A stretch of DNA of 64,000 bases, taken from positions 66,740-130,739 of the forward strand of contig JAKVCD010000001.1 of the NCBI GenBank assembly GCA_022446815.1, read 5' to 3'. The DNA comes from Planctomycetota bacterium. Its GTDB lineage: Bacteria; Planctomycetota; UBA1135; GCA-002686595. This document shows, in pieces, positions 27,723-34,560 of the stretch (position 1 is the stretch's first letter; the number at the start of each line of letters is the position of its first letter). The notes below the pieces were generated by a model, which was given only the letters and a program-made list of their open reading frames with translations, searched no databases and was not told the origin of the DNA. The translations under genes were made by a program, and so were the position numbers.

Positions 27723-29144
27723 TCAGGCGAAGAAGCCCTCGAGCGGACCCGTGCTGTCAGCGAAGCTCTCGGTCTCAATCCCGAGGGCTTGGAGCATGCT
27801 GACATAGAGGTTGCTGCAGGGCAGGTCGTCCTCGCCGACCTTCTCGACGGCTCTCTCGAGGACAGCGCCTGTGAGCTGGTCTGCACCTGAAGACATCAGG
27901 CCGACCTTGCTGTAGCGCGAGTAGTGACCGTGGCGTATGCCGAGGTTCTTGCCTCCTACAATCGCCATGGGGTAGTTCCGCGCGTTGTGCGTCGTAGTGC
28001 AGGAGCTTCCGTACAAGGTCATCGTGTTGTCTAGGAGCGGGCCCCACTCGTCAGTGGTCTCCTTCATCCGACCGATGAAGTAGGCGAACTGCTGCGCGTA
28101 CCAGTTGTCATAAGGGCCCCACTCATCCCAGTGGCCCTCGTGAGCGTCGTGGCTGATCGTGTGGTGCCCCTTGTTCACTCCGACGGTGAGAGAGGGCCAG
28201 CTGTCTCCGAAGCCCATGCCGTCTTCGCGAGCGAGCATGTATGTCATGACGCGGGTGACGTCTGTCTGGAAGCCGAGCACGATGAGGTCGTACATCGTGC
28301 GCACGTAGGCCTTCGGGTCGGCCTTCGGGTTCGGATCTAGCTTGAGGTGGTCTGCGTTGAAGGGCTTGAGCGGTGTGTCTAGCCACTCCTCGTTGCGCTG
28401 CACCTGCTCCTCGACGGAGCTCAGAGACGAGAGATACTCGTCCATCTTGCGCTTGTCGTGAACGCCGAGGCGCTTCCAGAGTCGCTTGCTCTCTTCGAGG
28501 ACGAGGTCGACGATCTTCTTGCCTTCTTTGATCGATCGGCGGCGCTCTGCCGTCGTCTCCCCCCCTTGAACGGAGAAGTAGCGCTCAAAGATCTGACGGT
28601 GTCGGTGCTCCGAAGGGATCGGTCGACCGTTGTCATCGAAGGAGAGGGTCGAGACACGCGACTTGTAGCCGACGCCTCCATCTGTCGAGAAGATGAATGA
28701 GGGGTAACGCGTGTGCTTCTTAAGGTGCCGCGCGGCGAGCTGGTCGACCGAGATGCTGTTCTTGTAGTGACCGCCGCGGAGGTCGCCGCCTGTGAGCCAG
28801 GTGTCGCCGGCGAGATGCCCGAGGAGCTCGCGGCTGCGGGGGTGGCTCAAGCCGCCGTAGATCGCCGTCTGATCACGGAAGGGCTCGAGAGGCTCGAGGA
28901 CCTTTGTGTACTCGAAGTTCGCGCCTTCGCCCTTTGGGAACCAACGCCAGTGGGCGTACTTCTCATCGTCCTCGTCCGGGAGGCTGCAGCCGTTCGGGAA
29001 GTAGACGAAGCAAGCGCGCTTCGGCTCCTTCGCGTCGAGCGCCTTGACGTCGAGCTCCATCGCCTCGAGATACGGCAGCGCGCATGAGACGCCGACGCCG
29101 CGCAGGAAAGACCTGCGGTCGAGGTGCCAGGATTTTCGACTCAT
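27723..29144 (-). CDS. DUF1552 protein with Tat signal
   Basis: A 473-residue protein with a twin-arginine signal at the N-terminus (LDRRSFLRGVGVSCALPYLEAM), so it is exported folded. The body shows the DUF1552 pattern: FVYFPNGCSLPD, YGGLSHPRSRELLGHLAGDTWLTGG cut into blocks, SISVDQLAARHL, VMTYMLAREDGMGF, and the C-terminal LDNTMTLYGSSCTTTHNARN. DUF1552 proteins are distant DUF1501/sulfatase-fold relatives and are almost always paired with DUF1592 cytochrome-like proteins, as here (14 bp downstream). Biochemical role unknown. Confidence 0.93.
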   Translation of the reverse strand: MSRKSWHLDRRSFLRGVGVSCALPYLEAMELDVKALDAKEPKRACFVYFPNGCSLPDEDDEKYAHWRWFPKGEGANFEYTKVLEPLEPFRDQTAIYGGLSHPRSRELLGHLAGDTWLTGGDLRGGHYKNSISVDQLAARHLKKHTRYPSFIFSTDGGVGYKSRVSTLSFDDNGRPIPSEHRHRQIFERYFSVQGGETTAERRRSIKEGKKIVDLVLEESKRLWKRLGVHDKRKMDEYLSSLSSVEEQVQRNEEWLDTPLKPFNADHLKLDPNPKADPKAYVRTMYDLIVLGFQTDVTRVMTYMLAREDGMGFGDSWPSLTVGVNKGHHTISHDAHEGHWDEWGPYDNWYAQQFAYFIGRMKETTDEWGPLLDNTMTLYGSSCTTTHNARNYPMAIVGGKNLGIRHGHYSRYSKVGLMSSGADQLTGAVLERAVEKVGEDDLPCSNLYVSMLQALGIETESFADSTGPLEGFFA

Positions 29145-29158
29145 GAGCTGATCTCTGG

Positions 29159-32100
29159 TTAGCGCTGGGAGAAGGAGGGTGAGGCCACGATGGCCTCAAT
29201 CACGGACCGGATCCGGTGATCTTCTGATCTTACCGTCTCCAGAATACTCTGCAGTTCTTCTTCGTCCGCGTAGCCCACATCCCGCCCTGTGGCGTACGCA
29301 AACAAGTGTTCGATAACCGAAGACGCGAAGGCGTCGGGCACGTCTTGGAGGATGTAGGCCCTCAGGCCGTCCGGGCCGACGATCTCTGTCCCATCAGGGA
29401 GGATCGTGCTTGCATCAACTGGCTTACCCTTTCGCTTGGTCTCTAGGCGTCCGACTGCGTTGTAGCTCTCGAGGGCGATCCCGTAAGGGTCAAAGCTGGC
29501 GTGACAGTCACGACAAGAGTCGCTGTCGCGGTGCAGCTCGATCTGCTCTTTGAGGGTCAGCTTGTCGAAGCCTGGCGTCTCTGGGTCGATGTCCGGCACG
29601 TTCGGTGGTGGCGGGAGGGGCGGCTGGCCGAGGAGCTTCTCCTTCACCCACACGGCGCGCTTTATGGGGTGGGGCTCGTTTCCGTCGGAATGACCTGCGA
29701 GGAAGGCGCCGTGTGAGAGCAGCCCGCCCCTGCCCTGCTCTGCCGCGACCTGCACCGGTCGAAACTCCACGCCCTCGACCCCTTCGATCCCGTAGAACTC
29801 GGCGAGGTTCTGGTTAAGGATCGTGAAGTCCGCGTCGACGAGCGTGAAGAGGTCCATGTCCTCCCGCAGCACGTGCGACACGAAGTGATAGGTCTCCTCA
29901 GCCATATCTCGTTTCACGAAGCGCGTGAAGTCACGGAACTTGTTGGGGTTGATCGTCATCCCCTCGAGGCGGTCGAGGCGCAACCACTCGCGGGTGAAGG
30001 AGCGAACGAAGCGCTCTGAGCGCTCATCGTCGAGTAAGCGTGTCACTTGGACGCCAAGCTCTGTGCGAAGCGCCCCACGCGCTGCGAGGTCACGCAGCTC
30101 TTCGTCAGGAGGAGAGTTCCACAAGAAGTACGAGAGCCTCGAGGCGAGGACCTCTTGGGAGATTTGCTCTTCCGACCCATGCTCAGGCTCAATGAGGAAG
30201 AGGAAGTTCGGTGAAGAGAGCGCTGCGACGAGGACCTCTCGCACGCTGTGCTCGTAGTGCTCGTACTCTCCGCGGACGCTCCGCCAGAAGCTCAGGTAGC
30301 GATCGGCCTCCCCGTCGTCGAGCGGACGGCGGAAGGCTCGACCGAGGAAGCGGGTGACGATCTCGCGCGTATACACCTCCTCATCCCCTGAGTTCGGAGA
30401 GTCGAAGAAGATCCGCTTGTGAGATTCAGGCGGCCAACTCGGAAGATAGGGGGCCTCGAACTCCATCGCCTCGATGAGCAGCGGAGGGCCAGTCTCCTTG
30501 CTCGACTTCACGAGGTGATCGTTCCATACACCCAAGACCATGATCCCCGAGAGAACCTCGAGGTCGCCTGACTCGGGCTCAGGGATCGGGAGGTTCTCCA
30601 GGCGGCCTTGGAAGGTGTAAGTCTCAGCCTCACCTAGGCGCGCGCGGACCTCTTGGGGTTCATCAAAGGTCTTGTAGTCCATCCCGTCATCCGTGCGAGT
30701 CCCGATGAAGGCTCGCATAGCAGGGAGCTCATCGAACTCCTCCTCACCAGCCTGCGCTTCGAGGCGCGCCACCAGGGGATGTTCTCCGGCAAGGGGCGTG
30801 ATGATGAGCTGCGAGAAGCCGACGAAGATGGGGCCGCCCAGAGTGATGACGTGGCGACCTGCGTTCATGTAGCCCCCACCGAGCGCCGTCACCACATGAC
30901 CGCGCTCGACCTCCTCATCGCTGAGCTGCGGGCGCAGGTCGAGCTTGAGGTCGCCGACCTTAAAACGGATCGACCCCATCGCTGCCGGAGGGGTCGCGGG
31001 ATGCACCAGATCAAACTGGTAGTAGCCGCTCTCTTCAAAGTTATGGACGAGGCGCGCATTGCTCACCTCTGTCGAGTCGATCGGGACGAGGCCTCCGTCC
31101 TTGAACGTGAGGTTTTGGCGCGCGTCGCTGCGGTCAGCCTTGAGGACTGTGGCGCTCGCGCCTGTGTGCACGTCATAAGGGGTCGACCCAGCAGCCGTGC
31201 CATCGTGGACGACGCGGTGATAGCTGCCGAATCCACCGAGGTAGTTCACGACCTTGATGAGCAGGTCATTCCTGCCCTGCTTGAGCGAGAGGGTCAGCGC
31301 GTCTTGGTCTGCGGCCACTCCGCGTCGAACGTCTCGCTCTAAGACCTCCTCACCGTTGAGCCAGACCCAGACAGCGTCATCGCTCCCGATCGTGACGTCC
31401 ATTGTGCGCGCGCTAGGCGCCTCGATGACCCTCGCGAGGTGCACCGTACCTACCCCATTTCGGTAGCGGATGACCGCGCCATCCTCGCCCTCAGTTTGCT
31501 CCCACGCCGTGACGCCATCCGAAAGGAGGGCGTCGAAGTCGAGCGCCTCAGCAGGGTCCACAAAGATCGTGTCCCTAGCCTCTTCACCTGTCGTTGTAGA
31601 GATCGGTCCGGCGCGATACATCGGACCGATGCGCGTCGCCTCTAACTCCAGCGTTCGCGCCTCACTGAGCTCTCCCGGGGTCTGGAAGTTAGAGAGGCTC
31701 GCGAGCGGCTTGGGGTCTTCGAAGCTGAGGAGGAGCTCTTTGCGCTCCTTGACCAAGTAGCCGCGCGAGGCGGTGACGCGCAGCACGAAGTCTCCCTCCT
31801 CAGGGAAGACGCGCTGCATCTCGAGCTTCATGTTCGGCGAGGGTCCCTGCCATGAGCCCGGCGCGACCTCCTTGTGCGGCAGGCTCGAGTAAAGGACGAC
31901 CCCCTCATCCACTGTGTGGATGCGGTCTTGTGAGGAGCCCCTAAAGCCCACCGTCACCTTCCGCTTCACTCGGTCTAGCTCAGCCTGCTCTTCCGGCGTA
32001 GCCCCGACCTTGGCCTCACCGGCAGAGTCGAGGATGTCGACGGTGAAGTCGTTCACGTTCAAGGGGACGGCCTGATACCCGCCGGTCGTCGCTGAAGGTA

Positions 32101-32776
32101 GGCCCGCGCCGCGACCCTTCCCGAACTCCAGCTTGTAGCGCGTCGGCTCTGGGCGATCACCGATGACGATCGCTTGGTTGAGCCCTGCGCGCGCGATCTC
32201 TTGGTAGTACTCGAGGTGTAGCGGGCTCGCGAGGAGCACCTCGCCGTTGTTCGTGAAGCCCATCTCCGACTTGCTGTCGTCAGGTAAGACCTGCCCAAAA
32301 TCGATCGAGAGCCCGAGGAGGTCTTGGAGAGAGTTTGTGTACTGGCTCTTGTTCAGCCGGCGGAGCACTGAGCGCCGCTCCCCCTCGTGCGCCCGCGCGG
32401 CCTCTTCAAGTGACGCGTTCAACCACGACACCACCACTCGACGCTCATCTGCGGTCGGCTGGGCTGAGCGCCCCGGCGGCATGTCGCCGCTGTTCAGCAT
32501 GTCCCGCGCGTAGCTCCAGATCTCCGCGTCGGGCCCATTGACCATGTCTGGGTCGACCTCATCGAATCGGATGTCTGACTTCTGCTTCTCTGGCCCATGG
32601 CAACTCAAGCAGTAGCGCTCGAGGACCGGGTAGACCTCTCTCGCGTAGACATCGTCGGGCTCATGCGCCTCTGCTCCTGACTCTTCGACGGCGAGAGCGC
32701 TCGCCACCAACAGCGCGAGCGTCGAGCTCAGCGCGAGGGCGCGAGGGCGCCTGCGTCGTTCGGTGCTGTCATACAT
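29159..32776 (-). CDS. Large planctomycete-type c-type cytochrome protein (DUF1587/1592/1588/1585)
   Basis: A 1205-residue exported protein. A signal peptide (about residues 12-32) is followed by one haem-c site, CLSCH at residues 56-60. DUF1587 follows (LRRLNKSQYTNSLQDLL, about 143-205). About 650 residues then hold extra beta-rich modules, including AVWVWLNGEEVLERD with LKQGRNDLLIKVVN (galactose-binding-like). The C-terminal third carries DUF1595 (FLGRAFRRPLDDGEADRYL), DUF1592 (LVAALSSPNFLFLIEPE to REWLRLDRLEG), DUF1588 (RGGLLSHGAFLAGHSDGN, and DSCRDCHASFDPYGIALE with a second CxxCH) and DUF1585. The family is typical of Planctomycetota and Verrucomicrobiota. It is longer than most members because of the central insertions. 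Confidence 0.93.
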   Translation of the reverse strand: MYDSTERRRRPRALALSSTLALLVASALAVEESGAEAHEPDDVYAREVYPVLERYCLSCHGPEKQKSDIRFDEVDPDMVNGPDAEIWSYARDMLNSGDMPPGRSAQPTADERRVVVSWLNASLEEAARAHEGERRSVLRRLNKSQYTNSLQDLLGLSIDFGQVLPDDSKSEMGFTNNGEVLLASPLHLEYYQEIARAGLNQAIVIGDRPEPTRYKLEFGKGRGAGLPSATTGGYQAVPLNVNDFTVDILDSAGEAKVGATPEEQAELDRVKRKVTVGFRGSSQDRIHTVDEGVVLYSSLPHKEVAPGSWQGPSPNMKLEMQRVFPEEGDFVLRVTASRGYLVKERKELLLSFEDPKPLASLSNFQTPGELSEARTLELEATRIGPMYRAGPISTTTGEEARDTIFVDPAEALDFDALLSDGVTAWEQTEGEDGAVIRYRNGVGTVHLARVIEAPSARTMDVTIGSDDAVWVWLNGEEVLERDVRRGVAADQDALTLSLKQGRNDLLIKVVNYLGGFGSYHRVVHDGTAAGSTPYDVHTGASATVLKADRSDARQNLTFKDGGLVPIDSTEVSNARLVHNFEESGYYQFDLVHPATPPAAMGSIRFKVGDLKLDLRPQLSDEEVERGHVVTALGGGYMNAGRHVITLGGPIFVGFSQLIITPLAGEHPLVARLEAQAGEEEFDELPAMRAFIGTRTDDGMDYKTFDEPQEVRARLGEAETYTFQGRLENLPIPEPESGDLEVLSGIMVLGVWNDHLVKSSKETGPPLLIEAMEFEAPYLPSWPPESHKRIFFDSPNSGDEEVYTREIVTRFLGRAFRRPLDDGEADRYLSFWRSVRGEYEHYEHSVREVLVAALSSPNFLFLIEPEHGSEEQISQEVLASRLSYFLWNSPPDEELRDLAARGALRTELGVQVTRLLDDERSERFVRSFTREWLRLDRLEGMTINPNKFRDFTRFVKRDMAEETYHFVSHVLREDMDLFTLVDADFTILNQNLAEFYGIEGVEGVEFRPVQVAAEQGRGGLLSHGAFLAGHSDGNEPHPIKRAVWVKEKLLGQPPLPPPPNVPDIDPETPGFDKLTLKEQIELHRDSDSCRDCHASFDPYGIALESYNAVGRLETKRKGKPVDASTILPDGTEIVGPDGLRAYILQDVPDAFASSVIEHLFAYATGRDVGYADEEELQSILETVRSEDHRIRSVIEAIVASPSFSQR

Positions 32777-33303: not shown

Positions 33304-34560
33304 TCACTTCCTCAGAATCACCCAGACAACCCCTTCAGGCTCATCTTCGCGCTCTTCAGCGCTGCTAAGCAGCTCGACCTCATCGATGATCGGCTCCATC
33401 TCTGCGTAGACCTGAGAGACCAGGGCCTGAGCCTCGTCGGCCTTCTCCTCGTCATGCCAGCCTCGCCCCCAATAGGTTCGCTCTTCGCAGGCCGCGTCGA
33501 AGGTGTCTACGAGCTCGATGTAGGCCTCGTTAAGCTCCTGGAAGCGCCTCTTCTCTTTCTTGCTCAAACCCTTCCTGGGGGCGTAGCCGCGCTGGCTCTG
33601 GTAGTCCCCCACCAAGAGATCGGACACGCCATCATGGTTCCAATCACAGACGGCTAGCTTCAGGCGCCCGCCGACGCGCTCGACATAGGAGCGGTCACCA
33701 CTCTTCACCATGGCCCGCGGAGCGAAGAGCAAGCGCGGGAAGCCCAGCTCGACGCCACCCTCTGATGACTCGTCGCGGATCCAATAGATCGCGCCCTCCC
33801 CTGTCCCCAACAAGACGTCGGTCCGTCCATCACCGTCCCAATCACCAGTCGTGACCCCGGTGTGAGACCCTAGGCCAGAGAGGTCGAAGCCCTCGACACG
33901 AATAGATCTCTCGTTGAGGACCGCGAAGCGGGAGACACCTTCCCCGCCGCGGTTCTCTAGGACGTACAAGCCACCCCAGAACTCTCCGCCAAGGAGGTCC
34001 ATGTCTCCGTCACCGTCCCAATCGATCGGCGCAACGTTCGTCGCTTGACCGTACTTGACGGGCTCCCCGAGCGGATCGAGCAGCTCCTCGCGCTCCGCCC
34101 AGCCATCCTCTGTCGCAAGGTAGTAGTAGAGCTTGCTCGGCCAGGAGCCGGAGATGAGGTCCTCATGACCGTCGCCGTTGAGATCCACAAACTGTGGACC
34201 GAAGCCGACGCATCAGCCGGTGGGCACCTTGAGCTTTGACTTTTGTGACTTAGCCCAGACTCGCTCGCTGAGCTCGGGCGGGCCTGACTCTGCGCTGTTT
34301 GGATACACCCCTAAGTACCCCTTCCCGAACTGACCGACGAGCAGGTCGAGGGTCCCATCACCGTCCCAGTCTCGCATCATTGGAGCGGCGTGGCCGGTCT
34401 CAACGTCGATGGGTTGGCCATCCACTCGAACGAGCCTCGGCCTTATGAGGGTCCCCGTCTCGTCCTTCGGCTCCGGTCGTTCTGGAGATTGACCCCACGC
34501 AGACAGCGCGCTGAAGAGCAGCGCTGCTGCGAACAAGGGTTCAGATCTAAATGCGCTCAT
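33304..34560 (-). CDS. Probable selenoprotein: FG-GAP/VCBS repeat protein with in-frame UGA (U-C)
   Basis: One frame from ATG 34560 to the stop at 33306-33304 is interrupted only by TGA at 34215-34213. Read as selenocysteine it gives 418 residues with Sec at 116, next to Cys117. A signal peptide (FAAALLFSALSAWGQ) is followed by five Asp-rich calcium-type repeats: DWDGDGTLDLLVGQ before the UGA, then DLNGDGHEDLISGS, DWDGDGDMDLLGGE, DWDGDGRTDVLLGT and DWNHDGVSDLLVGD after it. The UGA therefore falls inside one beta-propeller, 11 codons before the second repeat. A strong SECIS-like hairpin sits just downstream. Without recoding, the 5' part would end after one repeat and the 3' part would lack start and signal. 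A redox or metal role is inferred. It lies in an operon-like run with the M1 peptidase. Confidence 0.83.
34182..34200 (-). promoter_or_regulatory. Candidate bacterial SECIS stem-loop (FG-GAP gene)
   Basis: On the minus-strand RNA, GGUCCACA - GUU - UGUGGAUC forms an 8-bp stem (one G-U pair) with a 3-nt loop starting with G, 21 nt after the UGA at 34215-34213. The geometry is nearly the same as the hairpin in the thioredoxin-like gene (loop GUC, G at +19). Two unrelated genes sharing this element after an in-frame UGA is hard to explain by chance. Confidence 0.75.

Follow-up and report, generated by a model that had tools for sequence, protein, structure and literature searches.

A probable selenoprotein family of Planctomycetota with a Sec-Cys pair in a predicted FG-GAP/VCBS propeller

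In a 64,000-nucleotide stretch of DNA from a Planctomycetota bacterium (contig JAKVCD010000001.1; hereafter, the window), two open reading frames that would ordinarily be called as separate fragments are interpreted here, with high confidence and in the absence of any measurement of the protein or of selenium, as a single gene for a genuine selenoprotein, in which a selenocysteine (Sec, U) and the Cys that follows it are carried by a propeller. The alternation of U-Cys and Cys-Cys at a single site, a codon bias that preserves an RNA hairpin next to the UGA, and the distribution of the Sec machinery jointly point to a selenoprotein family in which Sec is the dominant form.

The gene, its in-frame UGA and its orthologues

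The gene occupies positions 33304-34560 on the minus strand, from an ATG at 34560 to a terminal TGA at 33306-33304, and is seen in the ORF list and in the sequence as two same-frame pieces split by a single TGA at 34215-34213. The upstream piece (34560-34213, 115 amino acids) contains a hydrophobic N-terminal segment and one Asp-rich repeat, and the downstream piece, which the ORF finder starts at the first GTG (34188-33304, 294 amino acids), contains four repeats. An earlier note on this DNA had proposed that the two are joined by KVPTG-U-C-VGFGPQFVD, and reading the TGA as U indeed yields this junction within a 418-residue protein with one Sec, in which U is residue 116 (Sec116) and is followed directly by Cys117 (TGC, 34210-34212). 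The hydrophobic segment, FAAALLFSALSAW, which forms a helix at residues 9-22 in the structural model described below, is regarded as a probable signal peptide (residues 1-23, 34492-34560) without the backing of a signal-peptide prediction; export of the protein is probable, and is inferred from its N-terminus only.

The neighbours of the gene encode a DUF4345 protein, an M1 peptidase, a PSD/PSCyt protein and a 346-residue protein without a Pfam match, and their Pfam annotation provides no functional hint. A PSD/PSCyt multidomain protein (DUF1592/1588/1595/1585/1587) is encoded at 29159-32776 of the window; next after it, in the same direction, comes a 473-residue ORF (27723-29144) with a twin-arginine-like leader. 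The same genome also holds a paralogous UGA-Cys propeller (L002, G000:C13:25384-26685), with the motif NW-U-CIGMGSQFVDLNADG.

Of 101 genomes searched in the window's order, its own among them, 81 yielded a match; general FG-GAP proteins account for many of these matches, and most of the best ones held one TGA. An alignment of 31 sequences provided a profile with which 392 genomes of the phylum were searched, 328 of them matching, distant ones included; a scan of genome contigs returned mostly distant FG-GAP proteins. The profile had Cys at the Sec site, and therefore favours the alignment of Cys pairs there. A capped sample of the top-scoring loci provided 136 distinct aligned sites (100 with U-Cys, 11 with Cys-Cys and 25 with other residues), of which 109 were kept as orthologous. 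The 27 that were dropped comprised 26 FG-GAP proteins that are distant and lack the motif, a stray Cys-Cys (L151) among them, and one short copy, the third Cys-Cys copy of a Rikenellaceae MAG, with fewer than 60 bases remaining. A Cys after the site was a selection criterion for the 109, but all 100 U sites were followed by Cys before this filter was applied.

The orthologous set consists of 100 distinct UGA-Cys and nine Cys-Cys sites (TGC or TGT in place of UGA), in line with the expectation that homologues would display a conserved U-Cys or Cys-Cys. The UGA-Cys sites are found in at least 84 genomes, from 34 Planctomycetota families and one MAG labelled Armatimonadota; the number of genomes is a lower bound because sites sharing an identical context entered the count only once, and additional genomes, such as G215, G280 and G301, share the U-Cys context of those counted. 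The Cys-Cys sites belong to six genomes of genus g118, to genome G278 and, in two copies, to the Rikenellaceae MAG. The earlier note had also considered that homologues without Cys would refute its proposal: the orthologues all carry it, and the more distant FG-GAP homologues lack the pair, weaker ones such as those of G259 (172 bits) and G124 (119 bits) having neither Sec nor Cys at the site.

These counts bear on the possibility that the gene is broken, that it contains a sequencing error or that it represents two genes, with the UGA acting as a true stop. The mechanical calling of two ORFs is consistent with such a situation, but a UGA stands at this very codon in 100 distinct orthologues and alternates only with Cys codons, never with TAA or TAG, neither of which was found at the site in the examined loci with all stops read through. 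The existence of two separate genes, which would have overturned the earlier note, can be excluded on these grounds, and with an RNA hairpin under selection at the UGA (see below) a true stop is scarcely conceivable.

A quick tree was calculated for 108 of the 109 sequences, one being too short; its root is arbitrary, and no careful tree was completed. In this tree, Cys-Cys requires three changes in three separate places: g118 clusters with Sec forms (98% support), G278 lies inside a group of Sec forms (99% support), and a long branch carries the Rikenellaceae copies. Sec is the common form in these sequences and, at least in Planctomycetota, the Cys forms look secondary. One UGA-Cys member (L087) comes from a MAG that bears the label Chthonomonadaceae (Armatimonadota), where its contig is 7 kb long, and could stem from either transfer or a misplaced contig. 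The Rikenellaceae MAG (L089), a member of Bacteroidota and thus not of Planctomycetota, harbours three copies of the Cys-Cys motif on one contig.

The downstream hairpin and the selenocysteine machinery

A bacterial SECIS element is a hairpin located just downstream of the UGA, with a conserved G near the start of its apical loop. The minimum free energy (MFE) fold of the window copy (34182-34200) contains the 8-bp stem, the GUU loop and the G at +21 that had been pointed out previously, at -17.2 kcal/mol versus -11.3 +/- 2.5 in shuffled sequences. The corresponding z of -2.36, with 5 of 200 shuffles equally good, is weak evidence when taken from a single sequence, and codon and covariation tests were therefore employed instead. 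The part that is conserved in the 100 UGA orthologues is a stem of 5-6 bp with a five-base loop, represented in the window by a SECIS-like core of at most 6 bp with loop AGUUU (34183-34199). The loop reads AGUUN in 72 copies and AGGUN in 22, and a G occupies its second position in 97; in the window this base (34192, +21 from the UGA) is the third base of a Gln codon, CAG. In terms of both downstream position and loop G, the element predicted from these sequences meets the bacterial SECIS rule.

The distance between the UGA and the PQF/V-D motif is invariant, so that the RNA aligns without gaps and synonymous positions can be followed codon by codon. The fifth codon after the UGA, which precedes Pro, ends in T in 98 of 100 members, 11.1 being expected from the same genes, and does so whether it specifies Gly, Thr, Cys, Ser, Asp, Val or other residues. 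The sixth codon (Pro) ends in A or G in 96 of 100 (expected, 56.1), and the ninth (Val or Ala, before Asp) ends in G in 97 of 99 (GTG in 73 and GCG in 24; expected, 40.0). Elsewhere in these genes GTC is the commonest Val codon, and the Val or Ala codon that precedes their other Asp boxes is GTC or GCC in 110 of 187 instances. The P-values for codon bias ignore relatedness, and counts with one sequence per family are given alongside: T in 33 of 34 and G in 34 of 34. In the nine Cys-Cys orthologues the bias is gone, with T at the fifth codon in three, A or G at the sixth in six and G at the ninth in one.

Pairing is maintained in a similar manner, since the synonymous base of the Pro codon tracks its partner (A-U in 61, G-C in 26, G-U in nine and C-U in four copies). 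In 15 divergent sequences, 94.4% of cells are paired, three pairs have changed on both sides, and the covariation score (0.233, compared to 0.138 in shuffles) was not reached in any of 500 shuffles; furthermore, the hairpin is present in the MFE fold of 92 of 100 UGA copies and in that of one of nine Cys copies. The covariation term of RNAalifold is near zero because the stem is almost invariant, which led to reliance on the synonymous sites, the Cys controls and the 15-sequence test. Rfam gave nothing at gathering score in the window, and a permissive search of the site returned only three matches, all far under family scores and none to a SECIS family; known SECIS families thus do not cover this hairpin. 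The comparative evidence nevertheless indicates that the RNA hairpin is under selection.

The machinery required for Sec incorporation is general in the window's order: of the 101 genomes, 92 have SelB above cut-off and 95 have tRNA-Sec above gathering score. The window's own assembly (92% complete) contains SelB, together with a SelA match cut short after position 325 of 455, precisely where contig C14 (10,105 bases) ends; SelD and tRNA-Sec were not found there over cut-off. The interruption of SelA by a contig end makes a gap likely, albeit not proven, and probably explains the absence of selD and tRNA-Sec. The concern that Sec machinery might be absent is consequently allayed for the order and, by SelB and the cut SelA, partly so for the assembly itself, where it persists for the other two factors. 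In the same genus, G001 carries SelA as well as a contig that bears both SelD (with a TGA) and tRNA-Sec, and has no SelB above cut-off, while G002 has SelA, SelB and tRNA-Sec and no SelD; these assemblies are 71-76% complete, and show all four factors jointly, neither doing so alone.

Beyond the order, SelB and SelD were each above cut-off in 30 of the 31 UGA genomes tested, and tRNA-Sec reached at least 60 bits in 29; this threshold for the tRNA was chosen in view of secondary matches at 40-54 bits, which are presumably ordinary tRNAs. Missing are SelB in G383 (64% complete), SelD and tRNA-Sec in G407 (82%) and tRNA-Sec in G310 (83%), and SelA is present in G435, the only one of the 31 searched for it. 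In the six Cys-only g118 genomes, which are 99-100% complete, SelA, SelB, SelD and tRNA-Sec are all missing over cut-off, the maximum scores being 172 bits for SelB, 73.2 for SelD, 49.3 for SelA and 42.8 for the tRNA. G278 possesses both the Cys copy and the Sec machinery. Among SelD matches above cut-off in Planctomycetota genomes, 31 of 35 have an in-frame TGA, which makes SelD itself a probable selenoprotein in the majority of these lineages.

These observations also allow evaluation of the idea that the UGA is read as another amino acid, through a changed code or a suppressor, or that it undergoes regulated partial read-through. An in-frame reading alone cannot separate Sec from Trp; however, many genes of the family, including that of the window, terminate in TGA, all nine orthologous sites that lack the UGA carry Cys instead, and the Cys-only g118 genomes are devoid of all four Sec factors, which nearly all of the UGA genomes tested possess. 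This idea is hence highly improbable, and the comparative evidence makes it almost certain that the UGA at 34215-34213 is decoded as Sec. In the proposed mechanism, SelB and tRNA-Sec would perform this decoding, directed by the hairpin immediately downstream.

The propeller and the proposed role of the Sec-Cys pair

Pfam recognizes the window protein as FG-GAP_3 (78.4 bits) and FG-GAP (35.7 bits), both above cut-off, and the sequence and alignment reveal five Asp boxes: DWDGDGTLD (34345-34371), DLNGDGHED (34159-34185), DWDGDGDMD (33997-34023), DWDGDGRTD (33817-33843) and DWNHDGVSD (33619-33645). An AlphaFold2 model in which Cys replaces Sec (pLDDT 85.9, pTM 0.82) displays five strand groups, followed by a helical hairpin (residues 334-397, 33370-33561) placed between repeat 5 and a closing strand (residues 411-415, within GVVWVILRK). 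Sec116 and Cys117 are positioned by the model in a loop that precedes strand 123-125, and this loop, PQFV and the second Asp box follow each other directly, with the strand just before the box; the assignment of strand 123-125 as axial strand in blade 2 is inferred from the fold and not from coordinates. The assignment to the FG-GAP/VCBS propellers, which upholds the beta-propeller of the earlier note, is thus supported by Pfam, by the five Asp boxes and by a structure that is itself a prediction.

The likeness to FG-GAP/VCBS propellers (PF13517, PF01839; integrin alpha, CRTAC1, ITFG2 and PVL lectin) rests on Pfam, profile and Foldseek matches. Profile matches of known structure are integrin alpha-4 and PVL lectin, CRTAC1 being a further sequence relative, and the top Foldseek matches are CRTAC1 (E 7e-6, TM about 0.33, rmsd 11.5) and a KICSTOR chain (ITFG2); other low-TM fold matches are further propellers, including neuraminidases. 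Propellers of the integrin alpha type have seven blades, a criterion that the window protein, with five repeats in both sequence and model, does not meet. It differs from all four proteins in its five repeats and in the low TM-scores (about 0.3), which could perhaps be due to differing numbers of blades, and none of the four is known to us to carry Sec.

Since most FG-GAP propellers whose structure has been solved function in binding (integrin alpha, CRTAC1, fungal lectins), the Sec-Cys pair could play a structural or regulatory role, in which a selenenylsulfide locks the loop or senses the redox state for ligand binding. The retention of Sec in 34 families seems costly for a purely structural link, however, and some members are fused to redox domains, so that such a role is considered unlikely.

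Evidence for a redox function of the pair comes only from fusions and neighbouring genes. The N-terminal domain of DsbD passes membrane-derived electrons to exported thiol proteins. DsbD_N motifs, detected by regular expression, are fused C-terminally in 11 of the 100 Sec members, and Pfam confirmed DsbD_N above cut-off in all three fusions submitted to it (L024, L086 and L200). A twelfth locus, L226, turned out to be an out-of-frame chance match, and the C-terminal extension of L189 is not DsbD_N by Pfam. Five of the 11 have a TPGU motif after DsbD_N, and probably contain a second Sec. Such triple fusions, in which DsbD_N motifs and then a peroxiredoxin-like domain containing UGA in TPGUT are joined to the Sec-Cys propeller, were observed at L021, L022, L024, L026 and L027; in L024, Pfam identifies AhpC-TSA with 111.7 bits. 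The remaining 89 members, the window's included, have no fused DsbD_N by motif, and 47 of the 97 loci without any motif match have less than 2000 bases downstream. DsbD_N (PF11412) and AhpC/TSA peroxiredoxin (PF00578) are fusion partners in some members and not part of the window protein, and the relationship is one of association, not homology.

The next downstream gene in all six g118 genomes belongs to one common cluster that is DsbD_N-like; one translated copy is a probable lipoprotein with YQACDEQRC, and two copies compared to Pfam DsbD_N scored only 22.8 and 18.4 bits against a cut-off of 25. Because 17 of 18 genomes examined contain DsbD_N, its co-occurrence alone is uninformative. Clustering of the neighbourhoods of 17 loci of at least 6 kb revealed no recurrent neighbour other than the g118 gene sets, and among ten neighbours run through Pfam only the DsbD_N-like gene was of interest. 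In the complete genome G435 (L175 / L074), the propeller gene adjoins selD in divergent orientation; a tblastn search with SelD matched the examined loci solely at the two loci of this genome, most loci having short flanks.

The proximity to selD in G435 lends some weight to another possibility. Vicinal Sec/Cys pairs are good soft-metal ligands, and a secreted propeller might use the pair to sequester or deliver such a metal or a metalloid (copper, mercury, arsenic or selenium itself), without electron cycling. On the other hand, selD is a neighbour in one genome only, with the reservation that most loci are short-flanked, and the fusions identified involve DsbD_N and a Sec-peroxiredoxin and no metal carriers; metal binding can be entertained as a minority explanation. 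The choice between redox and metal chemistry remains a matter of inference from sequence, in which the DsbD_N and Sec-peroxiredoxin fusions favour redox.

In the redox mechanism, the most likely of the functions considered, the propeller would serve as a scaffold for the vicinal Sec-Cys pair, whose inferred place is a loop leading into the initial strand of blade 2, and the pair would act as an extracytoplasmic oxidoreductase site by switching between selenol/thiol and selenenylsulfide. Electrons would flow from a DsbD_N-type domain to the pair, and from there to an oxidized target such as a peroxiredoxin. Participation of the pair in an extracytoplasmic thiol/selenol relay is inferred from fusions and neighbours, in the absence of data on redox activity, and its chances are evenly balanced. 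The fuller proposal is more tentative and somewhat short of even: a secreted selenoenzyme with Sec-Cys at the propeller axis, which would receive electrons from the membrane via DsbD_N and reduce extracytoplasmic peroxides or disulfides. Such an enzyme would be present in much of Planctomycetota and would have been missed since Cys forms are rare.

Relation to known selenoproteins and implications

The suggestion that a selenoprotein of this fold had not been described agrees with the catalogues that were checked, from which the family is absent. Table 1 of PMC13188914 (2026) holds 119 bacterial selenoprotein families or subfamilies, and also cites those of Haft and Tolstoy 2025; no entry of this table is named FG-GAP, VCBS or beta-propeller. 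NCBIfam has no model above cut-off, the best scores being 22.3 bits (cut-off, 35) for the window protein and 15.9 bits (cut-off, 729.4) for the paralogue, both to unrelated families. The portions available of PMC9312934 and of the deep-Sep article (PMC12013277) make no mention of FG-GAP, VCBS, propeller or Planctomycetes, and no description of an FG-GAP, VCBS or propeller selenoprotein was recognized in the open-access literature searched, that on Planctomycetota selenoproteins included. The planctomycete Porphyra isolates P1 and P2 (PMC4807772) are of the same phylum and were reported to have Sec machinery, with fdhA and fmdB named; an unnamed member of the family among the candidates of that work (S9 Table) is not excluded by the portion seen.

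As far as can be judged from the accessible part of PMC13188914, the propeller family shares with the families listed there an in-frame UGA, a SECIS-like hairpin immediately downstream, the Sec machinery and Cys counterparts. It differs in that Sec is dominant and Cys rare, and in its fold: the CU or GxUC motifs that appear in that source sit in domains other than a propeller, and the majority of characterized selenoproteins are stated there to have a thioredoxin-like fold. The rarity of the Cys form may explain why the family was missed; the authors of deep-Sep indicate, in the part of their article available, that their method may miss selenoproteins without Cys homologues.

Sec and Cys forms that occur naturally, with and without the machinery, offer a ready comparison. 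If the interpretation presented here is correct, pairs of genes annotated as FG-GAP fragments may each be a single gene, and both selenium use and the exported redox chemistry of Planctomycetota would have been underestimated.
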